A stretch of 64,000 nt of DNA from Patiria pectinifera. Its lineage: Eukaryota > Echinodermata > Asteroidea > Valvatida > Asterinidae. Under the pieces are notes generated by a model, which worked only from the letters and a program-made list of their open reading frames with translations, ran no database searches and was not told the DNA's origin. Shown here piece after piece: positions 3,391 to 64,000 of this stretch. The position numbers and the translations under genes are program-made. How positions within the stretch are numbered: position 1 is the first letter of the stretch; each line of letters begins with the position of its first letter. The stretch spans positions 10,779,430 to 10,843,429 of the forward strand of contig CM057129.1 of assembly GCA_029964075.1 (NCBI GenBank), read 5' to 3'.

Positions 3391-4597
3391 ATGATATGTT
3401 TAAAATTTGACAAAATAGTTTGAACTATATCGTTTGAACTGCACTGACATGCTAAATAGCACCTTGTTCATTTCACTGTGGATGTACATGATGCCTTGGG
3501 AAACATGTCTCATTCCCGAACACATTCAATCGCTTGGTATTTACTTCCGGTGTTACTGGAAGTGCATTGAGAATTAAATGTAATTTGAAATCGGAAGCGT
3601 TTTACTAAAATCAAATGATGGAAATGTTTAGTGAGGGATGCTAAACACCAAAAAACGCCACGATGACGTCATCCTCACAAAGGACGCCCTCTAGAGGCAC
3701 GTAAAAGACATTTGTTTTAATCACTGGTTTCAAGGTTTCAAAATCCGACCGGAAGTTGTTGTAGAAAGAATTTGAAGTAATCGAGTTTCGGCTTTTTTAT
3801 GCCAGTCAATTATTTGATCAGTATCCATGACTATGTACGTAACAAAATAACGATTTGCTGTACAAATTTGGGCTTCGGCTGCCAAATGCTGTGACGTCAT
3901 TTAACCAGAAGTCACATGTTATTAATACATACACTTCTTCATTCATTGTCATGTTTTGTATTGTAGAAGTTCTCCTCACGTCATGAAGCAGTAGCAGTAG
4001 GTATCGTCCCTGAAACAAATCAATATTCAGCTTTTTTTTTACTGTGGACATCATTAAACCGGAAGTAATGTGTGCGTATACATACATGTAATTTTTTCAC
4101 CGTTTTTTACGAAGAGCCACATATGTCAAAAATGACCATTTTTGATTTCGAGGTTTTTTTTCACTACTTTACTTTAAAATATTGTACCGTAAACCATTTT
4201 GACATGCTTCTGTAAGTAAAACATCATTAAATTCTTGATTTCATTAATGATGCAAAGGACAGGCATCTCAATTAGTGCATTTTGTGTTATCACGTAGCGA
4301 CACGGACGTGTCTTGAACGCGTACAAAACGTATCAGTTGGACGGAAAGGCATAGAAGCAGGTTAAGTGAGACTTTCGTTTTGACGAGGAGCCACACATTC
4401 TTTATTACATTATCAGTTGCGCGTGTAATACGCGCGCCTCTTGCCTGTGGAAAATCACGTTGAACAGAGAGGGCCTAAATGTAGGAAACGTGGATATTTG
4501 TTTTTACGAAGGGACACGCATCTTTACTAATTGGTGTTGGCTAATTAACTGTGTTGAATCTAATTTATGGGTTTACATAAACGTTTACCGTTCAAAG
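3391..4597. other. Non-coding region with repeated CRE-like and ETS-like words
   Basis: No gene is supported. Perfect TGACGTCA palindromes lie at 3361-3368, 3664-3671 and 3892-3899 (plus 2821-2828). CCGGAAGT or its complement is at 3543-3550, 3749-3756 and 4059-4066. Part of this comes from a diverged repeat: 3892-3935 and 4045-4088 align as acgtcattaaaCCgGAAGT followed by ATACATACA-like sequence. Confidence 0.45.
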
Positions 4598-4755
4598 AAT
4601 CATGTGAATGTTCAAATGAATCATGTGAATGTTCAAATGAATCATGTGAATGTTCAAATGAATCATGTGAATGTTCAAATGAATCATGTGAATGTTCAAA
4701 TGAATCATGTGAATGTTCAAATGAATCATGTGAATGTTCAAATGAATCATGTGAA
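4598..4755. repeat. 21-bp minisatellite, 7.5 copies
   Basis: Seven identical tandem copies of a 21-bp unit beginning AATCATGTGAATGTTCAAAT, followed by a half copy. The unit is a multiple of three, so two reading frames stay open through it (heptads NHVNVQM and ESCECSN). The flanks show no gene features, so these are open by arithmetic, not coding. Identity of all copies indicates recent expansion. Confidence 0.95.
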
Positions 4756-5431
4756 ATGTGTTCAGCAGCAGTTGTTGCAGTTTTACATTTGAGGAACTTC
4801 TTTTACGATTATCTCAAAAACGCTTTTTCTTCAAAATCCACAGGTGTGGCTCTTTGTGACATCGATGACGATTTGACAGGCCAAAATGTGCATTTTCTTA
4901 AAAAAAAAAAAATTATACAAATGGTTCTTCTGAATAAAAGCTAAATTTCGTGACTCTTGTTCTGTTTCAATATAAATCTGTTCACAACTAAACTGGGCAA
5001 TATCCAATGACATGCTTGTCTACCAATTACTCCGCGTTTATAACTCAACAATCGTTACAATGTAATTTTTGAACATTTATTTGTCAAAATACAACCACAC
5101 TGATTACACTTAATAATGTCACGAAGCACAATGCGACAAATACGCATATAACAGTGCGGACGGTGCGGGAGCGGTGGGATTGCTTATTCTTTTGGTTATA
5201 ATGTTATAGGATCACGGCCTCCGGATCCACCCGTGCTTAACAATGCCGGCATATTGTCATTAGAAGCTTGTCTTCAGACACATAAACATTGACTTATCGA
5301 GATTTCACTGTACACTTCATGTTTTGCCTCAAAAATTTTAATTGGAATTCAGACGTTTTAGTATGTGGTTTTTTAATAAAAGTTAGGCCAAATTGACTTT
5401 GAGAGTTTAATTCTTATCAAATACCCGTTTA

Positions 5432-14973: not shown

Positions 14974-16303
14974 AAATATACAGGAGCAGTGCTGCAATGG
15001 TTTCGCTTTCCATTTCGCCAAAACAGTAACCAATGAATTAAAAGAAAAATGTTCAATGTCATGATAATAAGAAAGACCAATGAATTAAAAGAAAAAATGT
15101 TCAATGTCATGATAATAAGAAAGATAATTGATTCTTAATACAAAGCATTTTACATTCAAGTATCAAAACTGCATGAAACCAGTTAATTAAAAAAAAGTTA
15201 AATAGATGACTTTTGAAAAAGAAGGTTTTAGCTGCGATTGAAAAACCATTCAAATTCGTTATATTTTGCTCAAATAACGTGGAAGTCTGCATGGTCACTA
15301 TATGCCTTGCCAGGCTTTGGACGAACTTTAGGAAGGTTAAACTGAACCCTATCACAGCTTTTAGTACGAATGTTAAACGCATGAACTGATATTTACTCTG
15401 TGAAGTACCGTAGCGCTGCCTCACCATGGCGGATAAGTTTGAAAAGTACCGAAGTATCTTGAATTCATACCGCACCGTAACCGAGAGCCAACGTAGTTCC
15501 TGAAGTATGGGCGTACGACCCTTCCTTCTGCATATATGTTGTTATTTCTTAAACTTGTAATCGTACGAAAAAAAAACATAAACCGTTACAATAGTATGTC
15601 TGGGAAGTAACAAATGCATGTTTTTTTTTTGGTTTTTTTTCATTGGCATTTCGCATACCGTATACGGCCAGAGATTAAATGATGTCTGGTGATATCATTT
15701 ATTTATCCTCGGAAACTTTTGTTCTTGAAAAAAACAAGAGTTTCAAATTGCGCCACAGTGAACCAAGAACTCTCGACTTTTGTTAAATACTTTATTTTGT
15801 ATCCCATGTTATACATGTATAATTGACTTTTTGTTTCATGTTAAACGTTGAGTTTTAGAGCTTTCACTTTGATGAAATTGTTTACGATTTAATGTAATTT
15901 GAGTTGATAATGTGACACTATATCAGCAGATTACGCAATTATGATTCTATAGTAAATTTTTGATTTTTAGAAACATTTTTTTCCAAGTATACATTTGACG
16001 ATGTGCTCTGTTTAACAGCTTAACTAATTTAAGCACAGAAATTAATCATATAACATGTAATCAGTATGGAATATAAATACTCAAAAACTGTATTTTGAAC
16101 ATTACTTTAATTGAACATTTAGCTTTTAACAATGTGAAAACCTTGTCCCACTCGTAATACATTCCATCCAATTCCTCTCAGGAAAGTAAAATTACAGAGA
16201 AAATTTGACCGTTTACTGAAGAGAGTCAATAAAATCGTTTGTCGTTGAAATGAACGAGCAAATCCCAGTCTGAATCTTACGAACAAAATAATTTCTTATT
16301 AAG
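14974..16303. other. Type I 3' flank of C1q-2
   Basis: Homologous to 51350-52623 and 62340-63561. It contains no supported gene; the minus-strand ORF at 15107-15475 is not conserved as an ORF in the other two copies. It ends at the Penelope-like insertion. Confidence 0.6.
15029..15123. repeat. 47/48-bp tandem duplication
   Basis: ACCAATGAATTAAAAGAAAA..AATAAGAAAG occurs twice in direct succession (15029-15075, 15076-15123). The unit is single-copy in the homologous flanks of genes 5 and 6, so the duplication is private to this copy. Confidence 0.9.
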
Positions 16304-17936
16304 TTGTCCAAGAAAGCTCACACATTTCTTTCTCCCTGTGATTGTAGGACTGCCAGATTTTACCTTCTACCCAAGATTCACAAGGCTGGCAACCCCGGTA
16401 GACCCATCATCTCCGGTAATGGCTCACCCATGGAACGCATCTCCCTGTTCATTGACAGTTTTCTCAAACCCCTTGTCCCACAGATTTCGTCATACATTCA
16501 CGACACCCCAGACTTCCTACGCAAGCTTGAAGGAATCAAGGACCAGATTCCCAGCACAGCCATCATTGGGACTTTTGACGTCTCATCTCTGTACACCAAC
16601 ATCCCACATGAGGAGGGTGTTTGTGCTTGCTCCTTGGCTCTGGCCAAGGCAGGACACACGACTCCTCCCATCAGTGATGTTGGCACCCTCATGAGACTTA
16701 TACTAACGAAGAACATTTTTTCCTTCCTTGGTGAACACTATCTACAGGTACACGGCACTGCAATGGGCACTCGCATGGCCCCTTCCATGGCTTGCCTCTT
16801 CATGGGTGACCTCGAAGAACGCATGCTTGCCTCGGCCCCATGTCGCCCTTGGATCTGGTGGAGATATATTGATGATGTTTTTTTCATCTGGACCAGTGAA
16901 CAGATGAGGACAGTCTCTTGACCTTCACTAACCACATCAATTCCTTCCACAGAACCATCAAATTCACGTCGGAGTTCTCGGCTCACCAAACCCACTTTCT
17001 GGATGTCACCGTCCGCAAGCAAGGCAACTCACTAACCACTGACCTGTATTCCAAACCCACAGACACCCACCAGTACCTCCACTCCTCCAGCTGTCACCAC
17101 AGGCACTGCAAAACTGGCATAGCGTTTAGCCAGGCACTCAGACTCAGAAGAATTTCTCCCGCCATACACAGATACTGAGGAACAACTTGGTGGCCAGGGG
17201 TCACAGCTCTCGCCAAGTTCATCGTGCCATTGCCAGAGCTAAAGCTATCCCCAGAAATCTAGCTCTCACGGGAAAGGCCCCTGATGCCATGGCCAAACCC
17301 ATGATTCCCTTGGTTACCACGTTTCACCCCAATCTCCCTCCCCTTCGCAAAATCACTAATGACAATCATCATATCCTCCATACTTCAGATCGCCTTGCCC
17401 GCGCCATCCCCAACGGCCCCACATTGGCTTACAGGCGTCCTCGAAATCTACGGGACCTGATTGTTCGAGCTGAAGTCCCATCCTTAGATGCATCCCCTCC
17501 CACCCAGCATGGTACTTTCAAGTGCAGTTCCAGATGTGTTGTCTGCCAGATTCATATCCAGGAGTCTGACTCCTTTTCTGGCCACTCTTCTGTCACTACC
17601 CACAGAACCATTGGTAACATCACTTGTAACACCTCTAATGTCATATATCTCATTTCTTGCAGGGTCTGTGGAGTGCAGTATGTAGGTGAGACTAAGAATA
17701 CGCTCAAGAAGCGTTTCTATGCCCACCGGTCAACGGTCAACACCAAGAAACTAGACACCCCTGTTGGTCATCACTTCAACCTGCCTAACCACTCCATTTC
17801 TGATATGATTTTGCAGGGCATTGAATCTCTTGGCCATCGCAAGGACTCAGTTCGCCTCAGCAGAGAGAAAGTGTGGATGAATCGTCTTCGAACTATTCAA
17901 CCACATGGTCTCAACATCCAACTTGGAAATGATTAA
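16304..17936 (+). pseudogene. Penelope-like RT plus GIY-YIG endonuclease, broken
   Basis: Three frame-shifted pieces. 16304-16921 holds reverse transcriptase blocks: FYLLPKIHK, GRPIIS, TFDVSSLYTNIPHEEG, GTAMGTRMAPSMA and the catalytic YIDDVFFIW. A frameshift just before 16918 leads to FTNHINSFHRTIKFT..HFLDVTV (16918-17178). A second break, with apparent loss of some codons near 17150, leads to 17187-17936: a linker, a Cys-rich segment (CSSRCVVC), then a GIY-YIG module (VIYLISCRVCGVQYVGET, KRFYAHR, FNLPNHS). RT followed by GIY-YIG is diagnostic for endonuclease-bearing Penelope-like elements. The N-terminal domain is missing. Not functional as it stands. Confidence 0.93.
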
Positions 17937-29789: not shown

Positions 29790-30156
29790 TCACGTATGGC
29801 CGATGTACGTCATTATTCTATCCACCAATCGGAGTTAGTCACCCAACAAGTCGGTGACCACAAGTGAGTGGTCTGTGATTGACAGGTGCCAATCACAATC
29901 CACGTGTTTGAATAAGTCACCGACATCCATACAATCATTCCACCAATTAGATGCGTCTATTTGAGTGTCGGCGATACAAGTTTAGGGTTTAACGTGTGAC
30001 AATGTAACAGTAACATCATTTCCGTCTCATCAATATGTAGCGAGTCAGTGATGTGTGGTTGACAGCGCACAGGGGCCAATCACAAACCGGGCATGCAAGT
30101 TCCTCAGTCACTGCTCGGGAAATCGACGTCAATATTTAAGCCACAAGCTGCCGGCT
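29790..30156 (+). promoter_or_regulatory. Promoter of C1q-3
   Basis: Four CCAAT boxes (29825-29829, 29889-29893, 29943-29947, 30076-30080), an E-box CACGTG (29901-29906), GTCACCGACATCC facing GTGTCGGCGA as an inverted pair, a GACGTC core (30125-30130) and a TATA-like AATATTTAAG (30131-30140). The initiator-like CACTCCTCAC follows. The architecture is shared by five gene copies. Confidence 0.8.
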
Positions 30157-30241
30157 CACTCCTCACAACGACCGCAGCTCATGTCCACGTTCAGACGACA
30201 ACCCGAGAGAACTGTTTGCAAGATCGAACAAGAATTGCACG
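30157..30241 (+). other. C1q-3 leader exon 1 (contains uORF start)
   Basis: The 3' end is set by the donor CACG|GTGAGTGTTTGAAACAATC. It contains an ATG at 30181 opening 20 codons plus one base (begins MSTFRRQPERTVC). Joined to leader exon 2 and the coding exon, this frame stops on the main ATG; it is not the N-terminus of the C1q protein. Confidence 0.7.
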
Positions 30242-31884: not shown

Positions 31885-33525
31885 GTGAGTAGTTCTTATT
31901 GTACATTCGTTGCTTAGAAATCCTGTTTGATGCATAAAGACCATCATTAATGTAGGATTTCCGGCTGAATTCGTTCAATTCAAATTTAATTGTGCGCTTT
32001 TAGATAAAAACAGTTTCGCTAATTCCAAAAATCACTTAATGTCGTTCTCAGACATGCAATTTTGTATATAAAGACTGTCAATTAAGATTTTGCATCTTTC
32101 TTTTTAGAAAGGCAGATTACTCGTCATATCGTCACCAGGTTCACCGAAAAAAAAATAGTTTCATTTTTGTGTATGCCTACATGCAATTTACAAACTAAAA
32201 AAAAATAATAATCAGAGAACTAAAAGAAATAAAAGAAAAATACAGATACCAAAGATTAAATACTTCGTTAACCGTCAATCGTATTGGCAAAAAGAAATTG
32301 GATTGATTTTCAGTATTTGTTTCCATTATCTTTTTATTTCCACATGGTGATTGCAAAAATTAACTGGTCAATATAAAGAAATAATACACACTTAACAATA
32401 AATTGTTACTGATATGAACGTTTCATGATTCCTTCTCTGACATTTGAAAAAACAGAAATTCAAAACATCATGTCATTGTATACTTTGTTATAACACTGCC
32501 ACATAATATCTTCAAGGGCGGATCCAGAGAGTTTATTGCCGGGCCAAGTTTGTGCCAGGAGAATGGCTGAGGGTGGAAGGGCTCTCTCAATCGAAATTTG
32601 CCTTTTTTGATAAATATTCGGCCACTGCCAGGGGAAGGGCGCCCCCTCCTGATCTGGCTAAACTGCCGAATTTTATTAAACATGAATGTCTTTTGTGAAC
32701 GTAAGCATGAAACTGAATTCCCGAGCTGAAGTGAAATCCAAATCAAAATAAATTCAATGCAAATACGTCAATTGTCTCCTTTTTATGCGTATAGTGGAGA
32801 TACCCTTAAATATGCTAACGCGTTTGTATGCGAATTTGAAAGAAAGTGTTCACACATTGAATGAGCAAAGTGTGAAATTGGAAGGGAAAAACATATTTAA
32901 ATGAAGAATATGCTGTTTTAAAAACTCAGATAATTATGCCTTCAAAAATGATTCAATGACTTACTAGTGCCTCAAAATTACACAGATTTGTTTGTGTTTA
33001 ATGAATTTGAATAAATTGTATAATGAATTAGAATAAAGGCTTTAATGTTGATTTCAGGGAGCATTTAGGTTCCAGAGAAAAATGTCCAAAAGCGTCATTA
33101 AAACATGTTGCTTCTTTCTGGGCGTATTCGGTCACGAAAATGCAAATAAACTTTGACCCTTGTTTTTATTTGTGAATAATTGTTCCTGGTTTCGAATGAT
33201 TATTGATCAAAGTGCAAAAAAACCCTCAAAATTGTATTAACATCAATGATTAAAGTATTTTTTCTTTACTCAAGCATAAACGTTACCAGTTTTCTTTGTT
33301 TATTATTTTTCAGCCTACAGTGAACTCCTTTTGATGTATTCTTGGACCTGATCTTCAAGACTTTAAGACCGAACCATTGAGGTCGGTGTGATGATGTTTA
33401 ATTGATTCTATCATGACCATGAAAAAGGCGTGCCGTCACATAAGAAAAATAATGTAATTCGGTCTCCTTTCCAAACTTTTATCTTCGGGCAAAACAATAA
33501 TACTAAAAAGTGTGGATTGCCGGTA

Positions 33526-33539
33526 GTTGCCATGGCAAC
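33526..33539. promoter_or_regulatory. Perfect X-box (RFX-type site), C1q-3
   Basis: GTTGCCATGGCAAC is a perfect 14-bp palindrome matching the RFX X-box consensus. It is followed within 10 bases by a TATA-like ATATTTAAAAAG and then by an ATG at 33622. Confidence 0.75.
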
Positions 33540-33714
33540 ATATTTAAAAAGAACCCACCTTTTTATTTACACGTTATCCCCTTGCTTTCGGATAGGCCAC
33601 TGCCGACACATTCTCTGAATAATGATTCCTCCAAATTATGTCTCGTATACAAATTCTTCAGTTTATGTAGTGATTGTGTTTGTAATTTTAGGCACTGTAT
33701 TGTTTTCCTTTCAG

Positions 33715-34551
33715 ATGAAAATCTGCTTTGCCACCATTTTGTCAATCGCCCTTCTTCTGAGTAACTCTGTCAAGCTCCGAGCCTCCGTTACTGGGCCGGT
33801 TCCCTCGGACGGCGATGGTCCTGTGTCTCAGGTGTGTCAGCAGTGCTGCCAGGGACCTGCTGCAATACCCGGCATACCAGGTCTGCCTGGCCCAGTAGGG
33901 CCGATGGGGCCGTACGGTCAGTTGGGGTCAAAGGGCGATACAGGTCAGGAAGGTGAGATTGGCCCTACTGGACCTATGGGTGAGCGGGGAGCACCTGGGA
34001 ACACTGGGTCTAAAGGTGATGATGGGATTGGTCTGCCCGGCAAGATAGGTCCGAGAGGGCTACCTGGTTTTGTTGGAGGAACTGGGGAAACTGGTGTCAA
34101 AGGTCAGAAGGGTGAGCCAGGGGAGACACCAGACGATTCAAACCAGCGGGTAGCATTCACCGTGGTGAGGACGAGCGACTCGGGTGATTCTTCGAGTCAC
34201 GACACCCGTTTGCCCTTCCAGCAGACCGAGATGCTTCTGCCGGGTACCAGCTTCGATCTCGAGACCGGTACGTTTACCTGTAGTGTGCCGGGCACTTACG
34301 TATTTTCATTTTCTGTTCTTAAGAATAGCAACAACGGTAATTTTAACATCCATCTTGTTAAAAACAACTACTGGGTGATTAGTACCTATAGTACAACAAA
34401 TCAACGTGATCAGTTGTCTGGGAGCGCGGTTCTGGTTCTGCAGCGAGGAGACACAGTGTATTTGACTGTGTTCGGTCGGACGTATAGTCAGTCCAACCAT
34501 CACTACACCTCATTCAGTGGCTTCCTCCTTTACCCGGAGTCAATTAATTAA
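33715..34551 (+). CDS. C1q-3: secreted collagen-like C1q-domain protein, 278 aa
   Basis: Signal peptide (about 1-23), Cys41/44/45 cluster, collagen stem about 53-138 (28 triplets with one Gly-Ile-Gly break), C1q domain about 142-275. The start chosen is the ATG directly after TTTCAG; the frame is open to an ATG at 33622, discussed separately. The C1q domain shows FDLETGTFTC, NIHLVKNNYWVI and terminal TSFSGFLLYPE. The stop seen in gene 1 (GAA TAA) has become GAG TCA, giving a three-residue SIN extension shared with C1q-4. Private loops: SYSTTNQRDQ-type and FGRTYSQSNHHY. Likely secreted lectin-like or complement-like immune protein; ligand unknown. Confidence 0.94.
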   Translation: MKICFATILSIALLLSNSVKLRASVTGPVPSDGDGPVSQVCQQCCQGPAAIPGIPGLPGPVGPMGPYGQLGSKGDTGQEGEIGPTGPMGERGAPGNTGSKGDDGIGLPGKIGPRGLPGFVGGTGETGVKGQKGEPGETPDDSNQRVAFTVVRTSDSGDSSSHDTRLPFQQTEMLLPGTSFDLETGTFTCSVPGTYVFSFSVLKNSNNGNFNIHLVKNNYWVISTYSTTNQRDQLSGSAVLVLQRGDTVYLTVFGRTYSQSNHHYTSFSGFLLYPESIN

Positions 34552-41371: not shown

Positions 41372-42290
41372 ATCTTGCTAAACTGCATGAATGACTTTTG
41401 TGAACGTAAGCATGAAGTTGAATTCCCGAGCTGGACTGAAATCCAAAGCAAAATAAATTCAATGCAAATACGTCAACTGCCTACTTTTTTATGCGTATAG
41501 TGGAGATACCCTTAAATAATTTGATCGTTCACTAATATCAACTGGGTTTGAGAATGCTAACGGGTTTGTATGCGAATTTGAAAGAAAGTGTTCACACATT
41601 GAATGAGCAAGGTGTGAAATTGGACGGGAAAAACATATTTAAATGAAGAATATGCTGTTTTAAAAACTCAGATAATTATGCTTTCAAAAATGATTCAATG
41701 ACTTACTAGTGCCTCAAAAATACACATATTTTTTTGTATAATGAATTTGAATAAATTGTATAGTGAATTTGAATAAAGGCTTTCAGGAAAGCGTTTGAAT
41801 CAATTTAATGTTGATTTCAGGAAGCATTCAGGTTCCGGAGAAAAAATGTCACGAAGCGTCATTAACACATGTTGCTTTTTCTGGGCGTATCCGGTCACGA
41901 AAATGCAAATAATATTTTAACCATTGTTTTTATTTGTGAATAATTGTTCCTTTTTTTCGAATGATTATTGATCACAGTGAAAACAAACCTTAAAGTTGTA
42001 TTAAAATCAATGATTAAAGTATTTCTTTCTTTACTCAAGCATACACGTTACCAGATGTCTTTGTTTATTATTTTTCAGCCTCCAGTGAACTCCTTTTGAT
42101 CTCTTCTTGGACCTGAACTTCAAGACTTCAAGACCGAACCATCGAGGTCGGTGTGATGATGTTTAATTGATTCTATCATGACCGTGGAAAGGGCGTGCCG
42201 TCACATAAGAAACAAAATGTAATTCGGTCTCCTTTACAAACTTTTATCGGCGGGCAAAACAATAATACTAACAAGTGTGGATTGCCCTTA

Positions 42291-42304
42291 GTTGCCATGG
42301 CAAC
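42291..42304. promoter_or_regulatory. Perfect X-box, C1q-4
   Basis: GTTGCCATGGCAAC, followed by AGATTTAAAAAG. Position relative to the coding exon is the same as in genes 3, 5 and 6. Confidence 0.75.
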
Positions 42305-42479
42305 AGATTTAAAAAGAACCCTCCTTTTTATCTACATGTTATCCCCTTGCTCTCGGATAGGCCACTGCTGACACATTCTCTGAATAATGATTCTTCTAAA
42401 TTATGTTTCGTATACAAATTCTTCAGTTTATGTAGTGATTTTGTTTGTAATTTTAGGCCCTGTACTGTTTTCCTTTCAG

Positions 42480-48101: not shown

Positions 48102-50296
48102 TAACATAGCTGAATTAGCTCTTAGTCTGAACAGTTGCTGCAGATTCATACCAACATTTTGTGAGGCCAAAGTTTCATGCAATAAAAGCTAAGAGCAAAC
48201 TAATCAGGGTTTTTATTTTATTTGTTCGGAATAAGGAATTCCTGTCTGACGATATTATCGCTGCTATACTTCCATGGTGCACTCTCAACAAACAATTGTC
48301 CAAAATTCTGACTGGTTTCTCTAGCTCTTAGAAACTTACTTGAATTCTTGTCGCTAATGATAGCACACTACAAATTCATGGAAGTTTTATAGTTGTTATT
48401 GCCATTTAGGTTCGCCAGTTTTCCAGTCATACTCAGCTGAAGGTTTTCAAGAGCGTATTACATGAAGTTGCATATTGTTATTGAGGTTTACACACTTACA
48501 CAATATTTCAGATGATAAATAAAACTCTCTTTTTTTCTGAAAAGAAAGATATCTTGCGAAAGTTGGACGCTTCACCAATAATATCAGTACGACCATTCAG
48601 CCCCTGTATTATTTTGTTAGTTTCCCCTGTTTACTGTATCAAACATAAAATCCCGATGCAATGCGCTCACCTTTTTTCCGGCAATCACTCTAAATAGTTC
48701 AGGATAAAAGGTTATGCGGAAGTTGGCCACGGAAGAACGTATAAAGGAAATCGTGCCATCTCAAACATCCTCTCCTATATTGTGTTATTTAAAATTGGGA
48801 TAATCTCAATACCCTCTGTGCTTTGTTTTTAAACTGTGTCATTTCACTAGTTCACAGTGTGCTATTCCGGTTTGATCACTATACACGTATAGGTCTAAGC
48901 TTCACGTTTAAGTATTGCGTTATAAAAGTGTCACTGGTCAGAATAGACTAGAGGGCGCACATACGAACGGACCGGATCATGATCACACACTTTATCTAAG
49001 TTCAAATCGCTTTATCTAGATGGATTCATGTCTAGGAATCATGTAAAGAGTTTAATTTTGTACAAATTCTGGGGTCCGTCTGTTCTGCTGTTCGACTTCA
49101 ACGTTTGAAGCACCATCTTTCAGATGAAGTAGGCCATGTTTGCGTGCAGGTTCTACTGAGAATGTCACGTGGATTCTGTTAAATATCTTTTTGAAAAAGC
49201 AACATTTTCAGTGTTTAAGGTTTGCAATAATAGTACATATTTTCTTAAACCTTAAAGATTTTCCTAGACACATGCATGGCTGACAAACAGATGGTGGTTG
49301 ATGCTAATAGCCAAACCGGTGCGCTGATCTCCCACCACCGGGGAAATAATTCTTTTTGTAACGACTGTAGCTTAACTGCGGTGGCCCACCTGTAATATTT
49401 CCGCCACTATACTTCACTGGTATGAGCTCGGTTTCCCATATCAATGCAGAAAATAACTCAATAACTCATTTTTAAAAACTGGTACTATTACCACCGGCAA
49501 TCTGCTCACGTGTTGAAGATTTCTGTCATGATAAAATTCAAGAACATTACATAAAGTGAGCAGTTCTTAATACATTTTCCGTCAATTTAGCGTTTCAATA
49601 GCATAGTATTGTGGCGAAAGACTGTGTTTGTTTATGCACCGATAACGTTTTGGTCACCATTGCAAACAGAAAACGTCATTCGATTCAAAACACAGGTGCG
49701 AAAGTGATATTTAAAGAAGTGAGGGATCCCCAAAATACACAGATTTTTTTTGTATAATGAATTTGAATAAATTGTATAATGAATTTGAATAAAGGCTTTA
49801 ACGAAAGCGTTTGAATAAATTTAATGTTGATTTCAGGGAGAATTCAGGTTCCTGAGAAAATTATCACAAAGCGTCATTAACACATGTTGCCTTTTCTGGG
49901 AGTATTCGGTCACGAAAATACAAATAATCTTTGACCATTGTTTTTATTAGTGAATAATTGTTCCTGGTTTTGAATGATTATTGATCAAGGTGAAAAAACC
50001 TAATAAATAAAAACAATGATTAAAGTATTTCTTTCTTTACTCAAGCATAAACGTTACCAGTTTTCTTTGTCTATTATTTTTCAGCCTACAGTGAATTCCT
50101 TATGATTTCTTCTTGGACCTGATCTTCAGGACTTCAAGACCGAACCATCGAGGTCGGTGTGGTGTTGTTTAATTGATTCTATCATGACCGTGGAAAGGGC
50201 GTGCCGTCACATAAGAAAAATAATGTAATTCGGTCTCCTTTCCAAACTTTTATCGGCGGACAAAACAATAATACTAACAAGTGTGGATTGCCCGTA

Positions 50297-50310
50297 GTTG
50301 CCATGGCAAC
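50297..50310. promoter_or_regulatory. Perfect X-box, C1q-5
   Basis: GTTGCCATGGCAAC, then AGATTTAAAA. Unlike genes 3, 4 and 6, the downstream ATG is ACG and the extension frame has a TAA. Confidence 0.72.
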
Positions 50311-50485
50311 AGATTTAAAACGAACCCACCTTTGTATTTACATGTTATCCCCTTGCTCTCGGATAGGCCACTGCCGACACATTTTCTGAATAACGATTCC
50401 TCCAAATTATGTCTCGTATACAAATTCTTAATTTTATGTAGTGATTTTGTTTGTAATTTTAGGCCCTGTATTGTTTTCCTTTCAG

Positions 50486-51313
50486 ATGAAAAACTGCGTG
50501 GCCACCATTCTGGCAATCGCCCTCCTTCTGGGTAACTCTGTCAAGCTCCGAGCTTCCGTCACTGGGCCGGTTCCCTCGGACGGTGATGGTCCTGCGTCTC
50601 AGGTGTGTCAGCAGTGCTGCCAGGGACCTGCTGCAATACCCGGCATACCAGGTCTGCCTGGGCCAGTAGGACCGATGGGGCCGTACGGTCAGCCGGGGTC
50701 AAAGGGCGATGCAGGTCAGCAAGGTGAGATTGGCCCTATTGGACCTATGGGTGAGCGGGGAGCACCTGGGAACACTGGGTCTAAAGGTGACGATGGGATT
50801 GGTCTGCCCGGAAAGATAGGTCCGAGAGGCCCACCGGGTCTTGTTGGAGCAGCCGGTCAGGCTGGTGTCAAAGGTCAGAAGGGTGAGCCAGGGGAGACAC
50901 CAGACGACTCCAACCAGCGGGTGGCATTCACTGTGGTGAGGACGAGCAGCTCGGATACCTCTACGAGTGACGACACCCGTTTGCCCTTCCAGCAGACCGA
51001 AACCCTTCTGCCGGGTACCAACTTCGATCTCGAGACCGGCACGTTCACATGTAGTGTGCCGGGCACCTACGTATTTACGTTTTCTGTACTTAAGTATAGC
51101 AACAGCGGTACCCTTTACATCCATCTTGTTAAAAACGACTACAAGGTGATCAGTACCTATGGTACATCAAATCAACGAGGTCAGTTGTCTGGTAGCGCAG
51201 TGCTGGTTCTGCAGCGAGGAGACACGGTGTATCTTACCATGTACGGTAGGGTGCATAGTGATTCCACCTATCACTGGACCTCATTCAGTGGCTTTCTCCT
51301 TTTCTCCGAATAA
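50486..51313 (+). CDS. C1q-5: secreted collagen-like C1q-domain protein, 275 aa
   Basis: Signal peptide (MKNC..), CQQCC at 41-45, collagen stem about 53-138 with the shared break, C1q domain about 142-275 ending TSFSGFLLFSE. Start is the ATG directly after TTTCAG. The stem segment GPPGLVGAAGQAG resembles C1q-1 (GLVGATGQTG), whereas genes 3, 4 and 6 have G(F/V)VGGTGETG-type sequence. The C1q half resembles C1q-2 and C1q-6. This mosaic suggests gene conversion. Distinct loops: STYGTSNQRGQ and YGRVHSDSTYHW. The stop lies in AATAAATAAATAA. Confidence 0.94.
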   Translation: MKNCVATILAIALLLGNSVKLRASVTGPVPSDGDGPASQVCQQCCQGPAAIPGIPGLPGPVGPMGPYGQPGSKGDAGQQGEIGPIGPMGERGAPGNTGSKGDDGIGLPGKIGPRGPPGLVGAAGQAGVKGQKGEPGETPDDSNQRVAFTVVRTSSSDTSTSDDTRLPFQQTETLLPGTNFDLETGTFTCSVPGTYVFTFSVLKYSNSGTLYIHLVKNDYKVISTYGTSNQRGQLSGSAVLVLQRGDTVYLTMYGRVHSDSTYHWTSFSGFLLFSE

Positions 51314-53670
51314 ATAAATAAATAATAAATAAAATTAAATCACAACGCATAAATTTACAGGAGCAGTGCTGCATTTTTTTTGGTTTCGCTTTCCATTTTG
51401 CCAAAACAGTATAAACCAATGAATTAAAAGAAAGATGTTCAATGTCATGATAATAAGAAAGATTAGTGATTCTTAATACAAAGCATTTTACAGTCAAGTA
51501 TCAAAACTGCATACAAACAGTTAATTAAAAAGAAGTCAAATATATGACTTTTGAAAAAGAAGGTTTTAGCTGCTGTTGAAAAACCCTTCAAAGTCATTAT
51601 TTGTTGCGCTCAAATAACGTGGAAATCTGCAAGGGTCACTGTATGCCTTGCCAGGCTTTGGACGAACTTTAGGAAGGTTAAATTGAACCCCATCACATCT
51701 TTTAGTGCAAATGTTAAACGCATGAACTGATGTTTACTCTGTGAAGTACCGTAGCGCTGCCTCACCATGGCGGATATGTTTGAAAAGTACCGGAGAATCT
51801 TGAATTCATTCCGCACCGTAACCGAGAGCCCACGTAGTTCCTGAAGTATGGGAGTACGACCCTTCCTTCTGCATATATGTTGTTATTTCTTAAACTGGTA
51901 ATCGTATGAAAAAACATAAACCGTTACAATAGTCTGTCTGGCAAGTAACAAATGTATGTAAATATTGTTGTTGTTAAAATATATATATTTTTTTCATTTG
52001 CATTTCGCATTACCGTGTACAGCCAGAGATTAAATGAAGCCTGGTGGTATCATTTATTTATCCTCGGAAACTTTTTTCTTGAAAAAAACAAGGGTTTCAA
52101 AATGCGCCACAGTGAACCAAGAACTCTCAACTGTTGTTAAACATTTTATTGTGTATCCCATTTTATACATGTATAATTGAGTTTTTGTTTCATGTTAAAA
52201 GTTTAGTTTTAGAGCTTTCACTTTGATGAAATTGTTTACAATTTAATGTAATTTTAGTTGATAATGTGACACTATATCAGCAGATTACGCAATCATGATT
52301 CTATAGTATATATTTGATTCTAAGAAACATTTTTTTCCAAGTATACATTTGAGGATGTGCTCTTGAAAGCAGCTAAACCAATTTAAGCACGGTCATTAAT
52401 CATATAACATGTAATCAGTATCGAATATAAATACTCGAAAACTGTATTTTGAACATTACTTTATTGAACATTTAGCTTTTAACAATGTTGGAAACTTTTT
52501 CCCAATCGTAATACATTCCATCGAATTCCTATCAAGAAAGTACAATTACAGAGAAATATTGTCGTTGAAATGAACGAGCAAATCACAGTCTGACTTTTAC
52601 GAACAAAATAATTTCTTATTAAGTACTTAAATATGTGGTTATAGATAACAATTTTAATCCCTTTGATATTACAAATTATTGCAAACAAAGTCAGTTAATT
52701 ACCTGTATTTTTGTCCATTTTTGTTTGTTTTGACCACTAGATTTGGGGATCAGTGTTAATGGAAGGCCGGGTTAACATTGGTTGAGGATGGATGGGGTGG
52801 AGGATGAATGATTAGTGGTGTCGAGGGGGTTAGGGATTGAAGATGAGGGGCGGGGGAGCAAAATATGATGCCGATTGTTACTTATCTTTCAATAATTCAT
52901 CAAGAACAATGAATGGCACTAAGACGATGGTGTAGTATACTTATCCCATTTACCCCACGGATTCTTAAAATGCTAAAACATTTAGACAGAACAAAATGAG
53001 AAAAGAAAAATGCTGGATGTCAGGCCCATGTATCTTTGCCCCCCCCACCCCCCCCTCCCCCAACACAACCGGAAGCCCACCGACAGTGTTGTTCTGCATC
53101 CGCCTGTGAAGGGCAGGGTGTTCAGGTTGGCTTGGGTTTGAAGGGTGATAGAGATAAGGTGGTTGCGTTTCGCAGATTAATGGGATATGGGTGAGAATGA
53201 GAGAGAGAGCATTGGTGAGAGAGGCTGAATAGGGTGAAAGCTGTACGATTTCCTCACACGCTCATCTTACAAACGCCGGGTATGTTAGGGCCAGGGTCAT
53301 CGCCACGTGCATGGGGGAGGTGGGTGTGTGCAGGGGCGGATCCAGGAATGTTCGCAGGAGGGAGGGGTTCATCGGCAAAACAAATCTGACATGCAGACAG
53401 GTTTTTTCTCCTGACACTTGACCTCCAAAAGGCGGACATTATAATTATTACCAGTAAAAGATGTTCTTTTGCAATTTTTAAATATCCGTTGGCAGATTTA
53501 TTTCAGTAAATATAGCTTCGCTGTACGTTCCCATCGTGGTAAACCATGGCCCGGGACGCACATTTTCTTTTCTTAAACGACACCAACAAACAGGGTTGTT
53601 TAGCGCCCTCTACGATCCTTTTATGATACGTACGCAGGTATATAATTATATTTTCCCCCACATTTTGGCG
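51314..53670. other. Type I 3' flank of C1q-5 (copy B)
   Basis: Homologous to the C1q-2 and C1q-6 flanks. It carries the empty site for the 627-bp MITE (about 51350) and for the Penelope-like element (TTCTTATTAAG at 52613-52623). 53333 begins a CAGGGGCGGATCCAGG repeat. No gene. Confidence 0.65.
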
Positions 53671-59375: not shown

Positions 59376-61286
59376 GTGAGTAGTTCTTATTGTACATTTT
59401 CTCTCAATTTAGCGTAATAGCATAGTATTTTGGTGGAAGACTGTGTTTGTTTATTCACTGATAACGTTTTGGTCACCATTATAAACAGAAAACGTCATGC
59501 GACAGTGATATTTAAAGAAGTGAGGGATCCCCCTCCCCTACAACCACCGTCAAGCCGTGACAAATGGCCAATCGTTGCTTAGAAATCCTGTTTGAGGCAT
59601 AAAGATTATTTAAAGACCATCATTAATGTAGGATTTCCGGCTGAATTCGTTTAATTCAAATTTAATTGTGTGCTTTCAAATAAAAACAGTTTGCTAATTC
59701 CTAAATCACTTAAAGTCATTCTCAGACTTGCAATGTTGTATATGAAGCCTGTCAATTTAGATTTTGCATCTTTCTTTTTAGAAAGGCAGATTACTCGACA
59801 TATCGTCACCGGGTTCACCGGAAAAAAATCTTTTCATTCTTGTGTGTGCTTACATACAATTTACAAACTAAATACAACCCAAAAAATCAGAGAACTAAAT
59901 GAAATAAAACCGAGATACAGATAGCAGAGATTGAAGACTGCGTTAACCGTCAATCGTATTGGTGAAGAAAACTTGATTGATTTTCATTATTTTTTTTCAT
60001 TATTTTTTTATGTCCACATAGTAATTACAAAAACTAACTGGTCAATATAAAAAAAAATCTGTTTTTTTTCGTAAGAGGCCGATGTTTGGGCGAGTACTAA
60101 AAAGTTCATTCTTTCTGTCACTTAATAGACACTTAATATTTAACTGTTAAGTTCTGATATGCACGTTTCCTGTTTCCTTCCCTGACATTTTAAATTGTCT
60201 TTGTACATTCCTTAATACAATTTCATCAAAACCTCATGTCATTTTTTACCTTGTTTTCACACTGCCACATAATATCTTCAAGAGAAAGGGTGAGGGTGGA
60301 AGGGCTCTGTGAATTAAAATTTGCCTTTTTTGATACATTTTCGGTCACTGCCGGGGGAGGGCGCCACCTCCGCACCCCTGGATTCGCCACAGATCTTGCT
60401 AAACTGCCGCATTTGGTTAAACATGTTCTACTTTGGTAAACGTATGCATGCATGTGAATTCCCGAGCAGAACTGAAATCAAAAGCACAATAATGGCAATG
60501 CAAATACCTAAATTGCCTACTTTTTTACGCGTATAGTGAAGATACCCTTTAATATTTTGATCGTTCGCTAAATTCGACTGGGTTTGAAAATGCTTGCGCG
60601 TTTATATTCGAATTTGAAAGAAAGTGTTCGAATATTGAACGGGCAAGTTGTGCAATTGGACGGGAATAAAGCTATTGGAATGCAGAATTATTAAAAACTT
60701 GCATTATGCTTTCAAAAACTCATCAGTTGCTTGATAGTGCCTTAAAAATGCATACATTTGTGGGAGGAAGGAATTTTAATAACTTTAATGAATGTGTTTG
60801 AATAAATTGAACGGTGATTTCAGGCAGCATTTAGTTTCCCGAAAATTTCACATAGCCGCATTAAAACATGTTGTTTTTCTGGAGGTATTCGGCCAGGAAA
60901 ATACTGGTCAAATAATAATTTGTCCATTATTTACAGGTGTGTAATTGTTCCTGTTTTCGAATGATGATTTATAAAACTGAAACAAAAAAAACCTCACAAT
61001 TTCATTCAAACTAATAATAACATTATTTCACTCCTTAACTCAAGTATAAACATTACCGGTTTTCTTTGTTCGTTTTTTCAGCCTACAGTGAACTCCTTGT
61101 GATCTCTTCTTGGACCTGTTCTTTAAGTCTTCAAGAGCAAACCATCGAGGTCGGTGTGATGATGTTTAATTGATTCTATCATGATCGTGGAAAGGGCGTG
61201 CCGTCACATAAGAAAAATAATGTAATTCGGTCTCCTTTCCAAACTTTTATCGGCGGGCAAAACAATACAAGTGTGGATTGCCCATA

Positions 61287-61300
61287 GTTGCCATGGCAAC
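61287..61300. promoter_or_regulatory. Perfect X-box, C1q-6
   Basis: GTTGCCATGGCAAC followed by AGATTTAAAAAG; ATG of the open extension at 61383. Confidence 0.75.
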
Positions 61301-61475
61301 AGATTTAAAAAGAACCCATCTTTTTATTTACATGTTATCCCCTTGCTCTCGGATAGGCCACTGCCGACACATTCTCTGAATAATGATTCCTCCAAATTAT
61401 GTCTCGTATACAAATTCCTCAGTTTATGTAGCGATTTTGTTTGTAATTTTAGGCCCTGTATTGTTTTCCTTTCAG

Positions 61476-62303
61476 ATGAAGATCTGCGTGGCCACCATTC
61501 TGTCAATCGCCCTCCTTCTGGGTAACTCTGTCAAGCTCCGAGCTTCCGTTACTGGGCCGGTTCCCTCGGATGGCGATGGTCCTGCGTCTCAGGTGTGTCA
61601 GCAGTGCTGCCAGGGACCTGCTGCAATACCCGGCATACCAGGTCTGCCTGGGCCAGTAGGACCGATGGGGCCGTACGGTCAGCCGGGGTCAAAGGGCGAT
61701 GCAGGTCACGAAGGTGAGATTGGCCCTATTGGACCTATGGGTGAGCGGGGAGCTCCTGGGGACACTGGGTCTAAAGGTGATGATGGGATTGGTCTGCCCG
61801 GAAAGATAGGTCCGAGAGGGCTACCTGGTTTTGCTGGAGGAACTGGGGAAACTGGTGTCAAAGGTGAGAAGGGTGAGCCAGGGGAGACACCAGACGACTC
61901 CAACCAGCGGGTGGCATTCACCGTGGTGAGGACGAGCGACTCGGATACCTCTTCGAGTCACGACACCCGTTTGCCATTCCAGCAGGCCGAGACCCTTCTG
62001 CCGGGTACAAGTTTCGATCTCGAGACCGGCGCTTTCACATGTAGTGTGCCGGGCACCTACGTATTTACGTTTTCTGTTCTGAAGTATAGCAACAGCGGTT
62101 ATCTTTACATCCATCTTGTTAAAAACGACTACAAGGTGATCAGTACCAATGGTCAAGCAAATCAGCGTGGTCAGTTGTCTGGTAGCGCGGTGCTGGTTCT
62201 GCATCGAGGAGACACGGTGTATCTTACGATGGCCGGTAGGGTGCATAGTGGTTCCACCCATCACTGGACCTCATTCAGTGGCTTTCTCCTTTTCTCCGAA
62301 TAA
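61476..62303 (+). CDS. C1q-6: secreted collagen-like C1q-domain protein, 275 aa
   Basis: Signal peptide (MKIC..), CQQCC at 41-45, collagen stem about 53-138 with 17 triplets, a Gly-Ile-Gly break, then 11 triplets. The C1q domain is about 142-275 with FDLETGAFTC, the PGTYVFTFSV core and TSFSGFLLFSE end. Start is the ATG directly after TTTCAG. Stem is type GFAGGTGETGVKGEKG (as genes 3 and 4), the C1q half is type 2/5. Private loop STNGQANQRGQ and AGRVHSGSTHHW. Stop within AATAAATAAATAA. Frame intact. Confidence 0.94.
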   Translation: MKICVATILSIALLLGNSVKLRASVTGPVPSDGDGPASQVCQQCCQGPAAIPGIPGLPGPVGPMGPYGQPGSKGDAGHEGEIGPIGPMGERGAPGDTGSKGDDGIGLPGKIGPRGLPGFAGGTGETGVKGEKGEPGETPDDSNQRVAFTVVRTSDSDTSSSHDTRLPFQQAETLLPGTSFDLETGAFTCSVPGTYVFTFSVLKYSNSGYLYIHLVKNDYKVISTNGQANQRGQLSGSAVLVLHRGDTVYLTMAGRVHSGSTHHWTSFSGFLLFSE

Positions 62304-64000
62304 ATAAATAAATAATAAATAAAATTAAATCACAACGCACAAATATACAGGAGTAGTGCTGCAGTTTTTTTGTTTTCGCTTTCCATTTTGCCAAAAAAGT
62401 AACCAATGAATTAAAAGAAAAATGTTCAATGTCATGATAATAAGAAAGATGATTGATTCTTAATACAAAGCATTTTACATTCAAGTATCTAAACTGCGTA
62501 AAAACAGTTCATTAAAAAGAAGTTAAATGACTTTTGAAAAAGAAGGTTTTAGCTGCGATTGAAAAAACATTCAAATTCGTTATTTTTTGCTCAAATAACG
62601 TGGAATCTGCACGGTCACCGTATGCCTTGCCAGGCTTTGGACGAACTTTAGGAAGGTTGAACTGAACCCCATCACAGCTTTTAGTGCGAATGTTAAACGC
62701 ATGAACTGATAAGTTTGTACCGAAGAATCTTGAATTCATTCTGCACCGTAACCGACATCCAACTTAGTTCCTGAATTATGGGCGTACGACCCTTCCTTCT
62801 GCATATATGTTATTATTTTTAAACTGGTAATCGTATGAAAAGACATAAACCGTTACAATAGTCTGTCTGGGAAGTAACAAATGCATGTATTAAAATATAT
62901 TGTTATTGTTTTTTTTTTCATTTGCATTTCGCATACCGTATACAGCCAGCGATTAAATGAAGTATGGTGATATCATTAATTTATTCATCCTCGGAAACTT
63001 TTTTTTCTTGAAAATACAAGAGTTTCAAAAAGCGCCACAGTGAACCAAGAACTCTCAACTTTTGTTAAACACTTTATTGTATCCCAGGTTAAACATGTAC
63101 AATTGAGTTTTTGTTTCATGTTAAAAGTTGAGATTTAGAGCTTTCACTTTGATGAAATTGTTTACGATTTAATGTAAGTTTAGTTGATAATGTGACACTA
63201 TATCAGAAGATTACGCAATTATGATTCTATAGTATCAATTTGATTGTAAGAATTTTTTCTCTAAGTATATATTTGAGGATGTGCTCTTGTAAGCAGCTAA
63301 ACCAATTAAAGCACAGAAATTAATCCTATTAAACATGTGATCAGTATCGAATATAAATACTCATAAACTGTGTTTGAACATTACTTTAACTGAACATTTA
63401 GCTTTAAACAATATGGAAAACCTTGTCCCACTCGTAATACATTCCGTCGAATTCCTCTCAAGAAAGTACAATTACAGAGTAAATTACAGAGTAACATTGT
63501 CGTTGAAATGAACGAGCAAATCCCAGTCTGACTTTTACAAACAAATTAATTTCTTATTAAGTACTTAAATCTGTGATTATAGATAACAATTCTAATCCCT
63601 TTGATATTACAAATTATTGCAAACAGAGTCAGTTAATGACCTGTATTTTTGTCCATATTTGTTTGTTTTGACTTGTAGATTTGGGGATCGGTGTTAATGA
63701 AAGGCCGGGTTAACATTGGTTGAGGATGGATGGGGTGGAGGATGAATGATTAGTGGTGTCGAGAGGGTTAGAAATTGAGGACGAAGGGCGGGGGAAACAA
63801 TGAATGGCACTAAGACGATGGTGTAGTCTACTTATCCCATTCACCCCACGGATTCTTAAAATGCTAAAACATGTAGACAGAACAAAATGAAAAATGAAAA
63901 ATGCTGGATGTCAGGCCCATGTATCTTTGCCCCCCCCCCTTCCCTCCCCCAACACAACCGGAAGCCCACCGACATTGTTGTTCTGCATCCGCCTGTGAAG
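62304..64000. other. Type I 3' flank of C1q-6
   Basis: Third copy of the type I flank, close to 51314-53090 and 14978-18800. Carries the second empty Penelope target (TTCTTATTAAG at 63551-63561). No gene; the window ends within the block. Confidence 0.65.

Follow-up and report, generated by a model that had tools for sequence, protein, structure and literature searches.

A perfect X-box lies in the last intron of genes 3-6 of a C1q gene cluster in Patiria pectinifera, and it raises the question of whether this site marks a second promoter giving an N-terminally extended C1q protein, as a preliminary description had proposed, or an element of another kind. The window (the whole stretch of 64,000 nucleotides that was analyzed, C1:10779430-10843429) is a slice of a C1q tandem array. 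This very large array, with copies on both strands, spans C1:9.98-10.89 Mb; a leader-exon search recovered at least 40 copies (92-100% identity), and 35 among the 40 matches listed fall within that interval. Since the window is part of the array, the tests suggested in the preliminary description could be run on further copies. The positions of all features are collected in Table 1.

Table 1. Positions, in window coordinates, of the features of gene 3 and of their counterparts in the other genes
Feature	Gene	Position	Strand	Remarks
Ordinary promoter	3	30076-30165	+	From alignment of genes 2-6 and 24 array copies
CCAAT box	3	30076
TATA (TATTTAAG)	3	30133-30140
TATA	2; 4, 5, 6	9793; 38789, 47422, 57303
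Predicted transcription start	3	~30158-30165	+
Leader exon 1, non-coding	3	30158-30241	+	Ends CACG/GTGAGT at 30241; placed by conservation
Leader exon 1, end	4, 5, 6	38897, 47530, 57411
Leader exon 2, non-coding	3	33314-33381	+	Preceded by TTTTTCAG, then GAG/GTCGGT; 23-copy alignment
Leader exon 2	4, 5, 6	42079-42146, 50085-50152, 61082-61149
Last leader intron	3	33382-33714	+	333 nt; acceptor CAG at 33712-33714
X-box, palindromic, GTTGCCATGGCAAC	3	33526-33539		Perfect match
X-box, perfect	4, 5, 6	42291-42304, 50297-50310, 61287-61300
TTTAAAA beside the X-box	3	33543-33549	+
Second element, CATTCTCTGAATAATGATT	3	33609-33627	+	Holds the proposed upstream ATG (33622)
Second element	4, 6	42374-42392, 61370-61388
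Second element, changed copy	5	50380-50398
31-codon open frame	3	33622-33714	+	Proposed N-terminal extension; drifts neutrally
Coding exon	3	33715-34551	+	Signal-peptide-like start, collagen repeats, C1q domain
Coding exon, start	1; 4, 5, 6	1504; 42480, 50486, 61476

Genes 1 and 3 encode collagen-containing C1q proteins. The gene 3 product scored 88.5 bits against PF00386 (cut-off 23.7) and 49.4 bits against PF01391 (cut-off 27.2), and the gene 1 product scored 83.9 and 51.2 bits against the same profiles, both above the curated cut-offs. Signal-peptide-like start, collagen repeats and C-terminal C1q domain are those of known collagen-containing C1q-domain proteins; the protein itself is ordinary, and the genome is remarkable for having two such families in so many copies. 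A conserved block of CCAAT boxes, TATA and a short exon lies ~3.5 kb upstream of genes 3-6 (3.1-4.2 kb) and is also found before gene 2. Across 24 array copies the TATA is exact in 23 and the leader exon 1 donor pattern is present in 20; the block is best conserved at -60 to +120 around the TATA (mean deviation 0.019-0.029), compared with 0.071-0.148 in its remaining 60-nt rows. Leader exon 2 became visible only after more copies were aligned, and its donors are more canonical in the distant copies L001 and L028; with this exon in place, the last intron is 333 nt long. From this layout, we infer that the ordinary transcript would start at the TATA/CCAAT promoter ~3.5 kb upstream and be spliced via two non-coding leader exons onto CAG/ATG.

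The last intron was aligned from 38 copies: 25 of type I (our own label for the four window copies and 21 others sharing their pattern), 10 diverged copies (type II), the intermediate L027, and the distant L028 and L001. All except L028 and L001 (36 copies) were also recovered via the leader exon or the coding exon, although the coding-exon query started 20 nt before the X-box and that sample is therefore not wholly blind to it; L028 and L001 came from an X-box pattern search and are ascertained for the motif. Copies on the small contigs C106, C118 and C210 may be allelic to others. Early stops interrupt the coding exon in 8 of 37 C1q sequences (L006, L011, L021, L022, L050, L051, L053 and L054). 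A scan of the viral contigs for relatives found none.

The exact X-box reported for genes 3-6 is present in each of them at the listed positions, and its location inside the last intron was borne out, with the leader exons upstream of it. Elsewhere in the window the motif is matched at two places only, each with 3 mismatches; gene 1 has the acceptor and, in the window sequence, no X-box, and gene 2 is not assessable, as the first part of its coding exon and the sequence before it lie under 500 N. This palindromic 14-mer is given as the consensus of RFX targets in Drosophila (PMC3414849) and for HEATR2/Dync2li1 (PMC4168999). The putative C1q-intron site thus has the same 14-mer as the RFX X-boxes of ciliary genes, and it differs from them in lying in a C1q leader intron, ~3.4 kb downstream of the ordinary promoter. 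No link between an X-box and C1q was found among the literature matches listed. Genome-wide, the exact motif occurs at 125 sites in 613.5 Mb (reversed-pattern control, 0; expectation from the window base composition, ~1.2), a ~100-fold excess that does not consist entirely of independent sites because some are repeats (L002 and L003 share flanks); with up to 1 mismatch there were 1450 sites, against 23. At least 18 exact sites, among the matches listed, lie at C1:9.99-10.89 Mb. A separate cluster of perfect X-boxes, including three pairs spaced 24 nt, was observed at C7:23.65-23.94 Mb.

That the X-box is unchanged in genes 3-6 while its surroundings drift is true as a description and weak as evidence from four copies, given that, of the 337 14-mers in the last 350 nt ahead of the coding exon, 39 show no change among them either. 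Gene 6 carries 41 private changes in the 323 columns before -350 and 6 in the 343 after it, relative to the other window copies, a recombination-like switch at ~-350, and some of the low divergence near the coding exon is, judging by this pattern, recombination. Because the fall in divergence is for the most part peculiar to gene 6 and consistent with recombination, constraint over the final 350 nt ahead of the exon was no longer argued from genes 3-6 alone; we take the four window X-boxes to stand for one ancestral site. Gene 5 also looks recombinant, its 5' side being near genes 3 and 4 and its 3' flank near gene 6 (positions 50277-51500 and 61267-62500 compared).

Further copies were scored for a match to GTTGCCATGGCAAC or to the relaxed published consensus RYYNYY N(1-3) RRNRAC. 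Of the 25 type I copies, 20 have the exact X-box and 23 a form that fits the relaxed consensus; among the 10 type II copies none was exact and five fitted, four of them as GTTGCCATGGAAAC. No literature match was found for the type II motif. For comparison, the same tolerance was applied to every 14-nt segment of the intron in both orientations (584 segments). The X-box was broken in none of the 18 copies with an intact coding exon (17 type I and L027; segment mean, 4.58), and 26 of the 584 segments did as well. The corresponding figures were 2 of 8 in disrupted or incomplete copies (mean, 2.72; 298 segments as good), 2 of 26 for both sets pooled (53 segments) and 5 of 10 in type II (136 segments), which, for segments that overlap, gives fractions of 0.045 in intact copies, 0.091 in all 26 and 0.23 in type II. 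The forward segments that do equally well in the 18 intact copies fall at two sites and nowhere else, one at -199 to -181, around the X-box, and the other at -112 to -100. IQ-TREE site rates, computed without L001 and L028, barely vary and place the X-box at rank 34 of 291, and when distinct changes are counted across the 25 type I copies, the X-box is equalled by 50 of 292 segments. The X-box is thus unbroken in intact-coding copies, but the motif decays in type II and its rates are not distinctive. These comparisons suggest modest constraint on the X-box in intact-coding copies and lend weak support to it as a constrained element.

The segments at -112 to -100 belong to the second element CATTCTCTGAATAATGATT, which is as unbroken as the X-box in the 18 intact-coding copies and would share its modest constraint. 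This element occurs genome-wide at 60 sites with up to 1 mismatch, 38 of them exact (reversed-pattern control, 1). The proposed upstream ATG lies inside it and is often kept for that reason. A reading of the element as a STAT-like TTCNNNGAA, a motif form we assume here, was set aside, as L028 is without it.

The upstream ATGs at 33622, 42387 and 61383, 82 nt downstream of the X-box in genes 3, 4 and 6, do open 31 codons through the CAG into the coding exon, with the hydrophobic run that had been described (VIVFVILGTVLFSF in gene 3, VILFVILGPVLFSF in gene 4 and AILFVILGPVLFSF in gene 6), and gene 5 has indeed lost the frame through ACG in place of ATG and an in-frame TAA. The substitution test proposed for these codons, run on the 25 type I copies, gave a pattern of random placement: the 45 distinct substitutions (30 nonsynonymous, 11 synonymous, 2 stop and 2 start) compare with 29.9, 11.8, 1.8 and 1.45 expected at the same transition share (P = 0.69 for so few protein-changing events). 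In the 17 type I copies with an intact coding exon the counts were 23, 7, 2 and 2 against 22.8, 8.7, 1.4 and 1.1 expected (P = 0.82). Six of the 25 type I copies no longer have the extension (gene 5, L014, L025, L045, L050 and L053), and the frame is intact about equally often in disrupted-coding copies (5 of 7) and in intact-coding copies (14 of 18, L027 included in the copies counted). It was found in none of the 10 type II copies, nor in L027, and L001 has no ATG-led extension; 6 of the 10 type II copies have another in-frame upstream ATG (5-38 codons), with mostly different residues.

The preliminary description read this arrangement as a source of transcripts, begun at the X-box, that encode C1q with 31 extra N-terminal residues in a membrane-anchored or differently processed form. 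The frame being intact in 19 of 25 close copies agrees with this, as does the context of the upstream ATG: read by eye, its -3 position is A, and that of the ordinary ATG, if left unspliced, would be C. The hydrophobic stretch is also unusual, since of 67 comparable open frames that precede acceptor-like sites elsewhere only 2 reach the cut-off used, and the same count argues against the pyrimidine tract alone as a general cause of such runs, an explanation that was dropped. Against these points stand the lack of protein-level constraint on the 31 codons, the survival of the frame irrespective of the state of the coding exon and its absence from all diverged copies, L027 and L001; moreover, an ATG-led frame as long as this one or longer occurs before 18 of 138 other acceptor-like site-frames in the window and in 6% of simulated introns. 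We regard this reading as very improbable: the extended protein is probably not real, and the upstream frame is most likely a chance reading frame, in keeping with the caveat, already given in the preliminary description, that it could be open by chance. RFX at the X-box might still act on a second start site in the last intron, immediately 3' of TTTAAAA, whose transcripts would encode the ordinary C1q protein or yield a mixture. The reported TTTAAAA is there, starting 3 nt past the end of the box in genes 3-6; in all four window copies the distance to the coding ATG is 189 nt from the X-box and 172 nt from the TATA-like stretch, and the ordinary promoter likewise uses a TATTTAAG box. However, a TATA-like hexamer occurs in 6% of 24-nt stretches here (the exact 7-mer in 0.8%), TTTAAAA is altered in several array copies (e.g. 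L004, L006 and L051) and in most of type II, and the ordinary promoter is far better conserved, so that we consider such a promoter unlikely. We hold equally little expectation that X-box and CATTCTCTGAATAATGATT form an RFX-responsive intron switch, that is, a second promoter giving one C1q branch its own expression programme and lost in diverged branches.

The reading we favor, with a confidence poised about midway between belief and doubt, is that the X-box and CATTCTCTGAATAATGATT, ~80 nt downstream, would form a small intronic regulatory module on a TATA-driven C1q gene that has been amplified in tandem. In this view the X-box is a candidate site for RFX within the last leader intron (333 nt), and the 31-codon frame is a product of chance. 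RFX binding and regulatory action are here deduced from the motif and its conservation. The main rival is that the X-box is a relic without present function, a site already present in the founder copy, multiplied as the array grew and still there owing to the youth of the copies and to recombination among them. This is a real though distinctly lesser possibility; it accords with site rates that do not single out the X-box, with the many equally invariant 14-mers in the four window copies, with the switch in gene 6 and with decay of the motif in type II and in a second C1q family. What it does not readily account for is the unbroken X-box in all 18 intact-coding copies, where the average segment is broken in 4.58.

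In its order of motif, TATA-like stretch and in-frame ATG, the locus resembles alternative intronic promoters that yield N-terminal isoforms, and it differs from them in that the additional codons show neutral evolution. The case illustrates how the copies of a gene family can serve to judge an eye-catching open frame next to a perfect motif: here the claim for a longer protein falls, and the X-box is left as a regulatory candidate of modest standing. A functional X-box would link an expanded innate-immune C1q array to RFX control, and a change in expression could be traced copy by copy within one genome.

The perfect X-boxes of L001 and L028 were not retained as proof of deep conservation, both copies having been found by searching for that motif. 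For L001 the coding exon has at least 40 matches in the genome at 89-100% identity (L001 included), 29 of those listed lying on C1:0-4.4 Mb, but only 5 L001-related sites keep the 31-nt X-box stretch within 3 mismatches; the family as a whole thus does not share its X-box, and this was a further reason not to take it as a sign of deep conservation. The four sites that differ from L001 are changed at X-box position 1 or 2 and nowhere in the 17-nt flank. This second C1q expansion, related to L001, is located at C1:0-4.4 Mb and also on C20, C415 and small contigs.

Two further features of the window were observed. Positions 16292-17936 hold a reverse-transcriptase-like frame (PF00078, 28.2 bits, just under the cut-off of 29.6) and, after it, a GIY-YIG frame (PF01541, 25.5 bits; cut-off 22.6), which we take to resemble a Penelope-type element. 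A short tandem repeat at 4564-4800 is open in two reading frames, with CECSNES and MNHVNVQ units.
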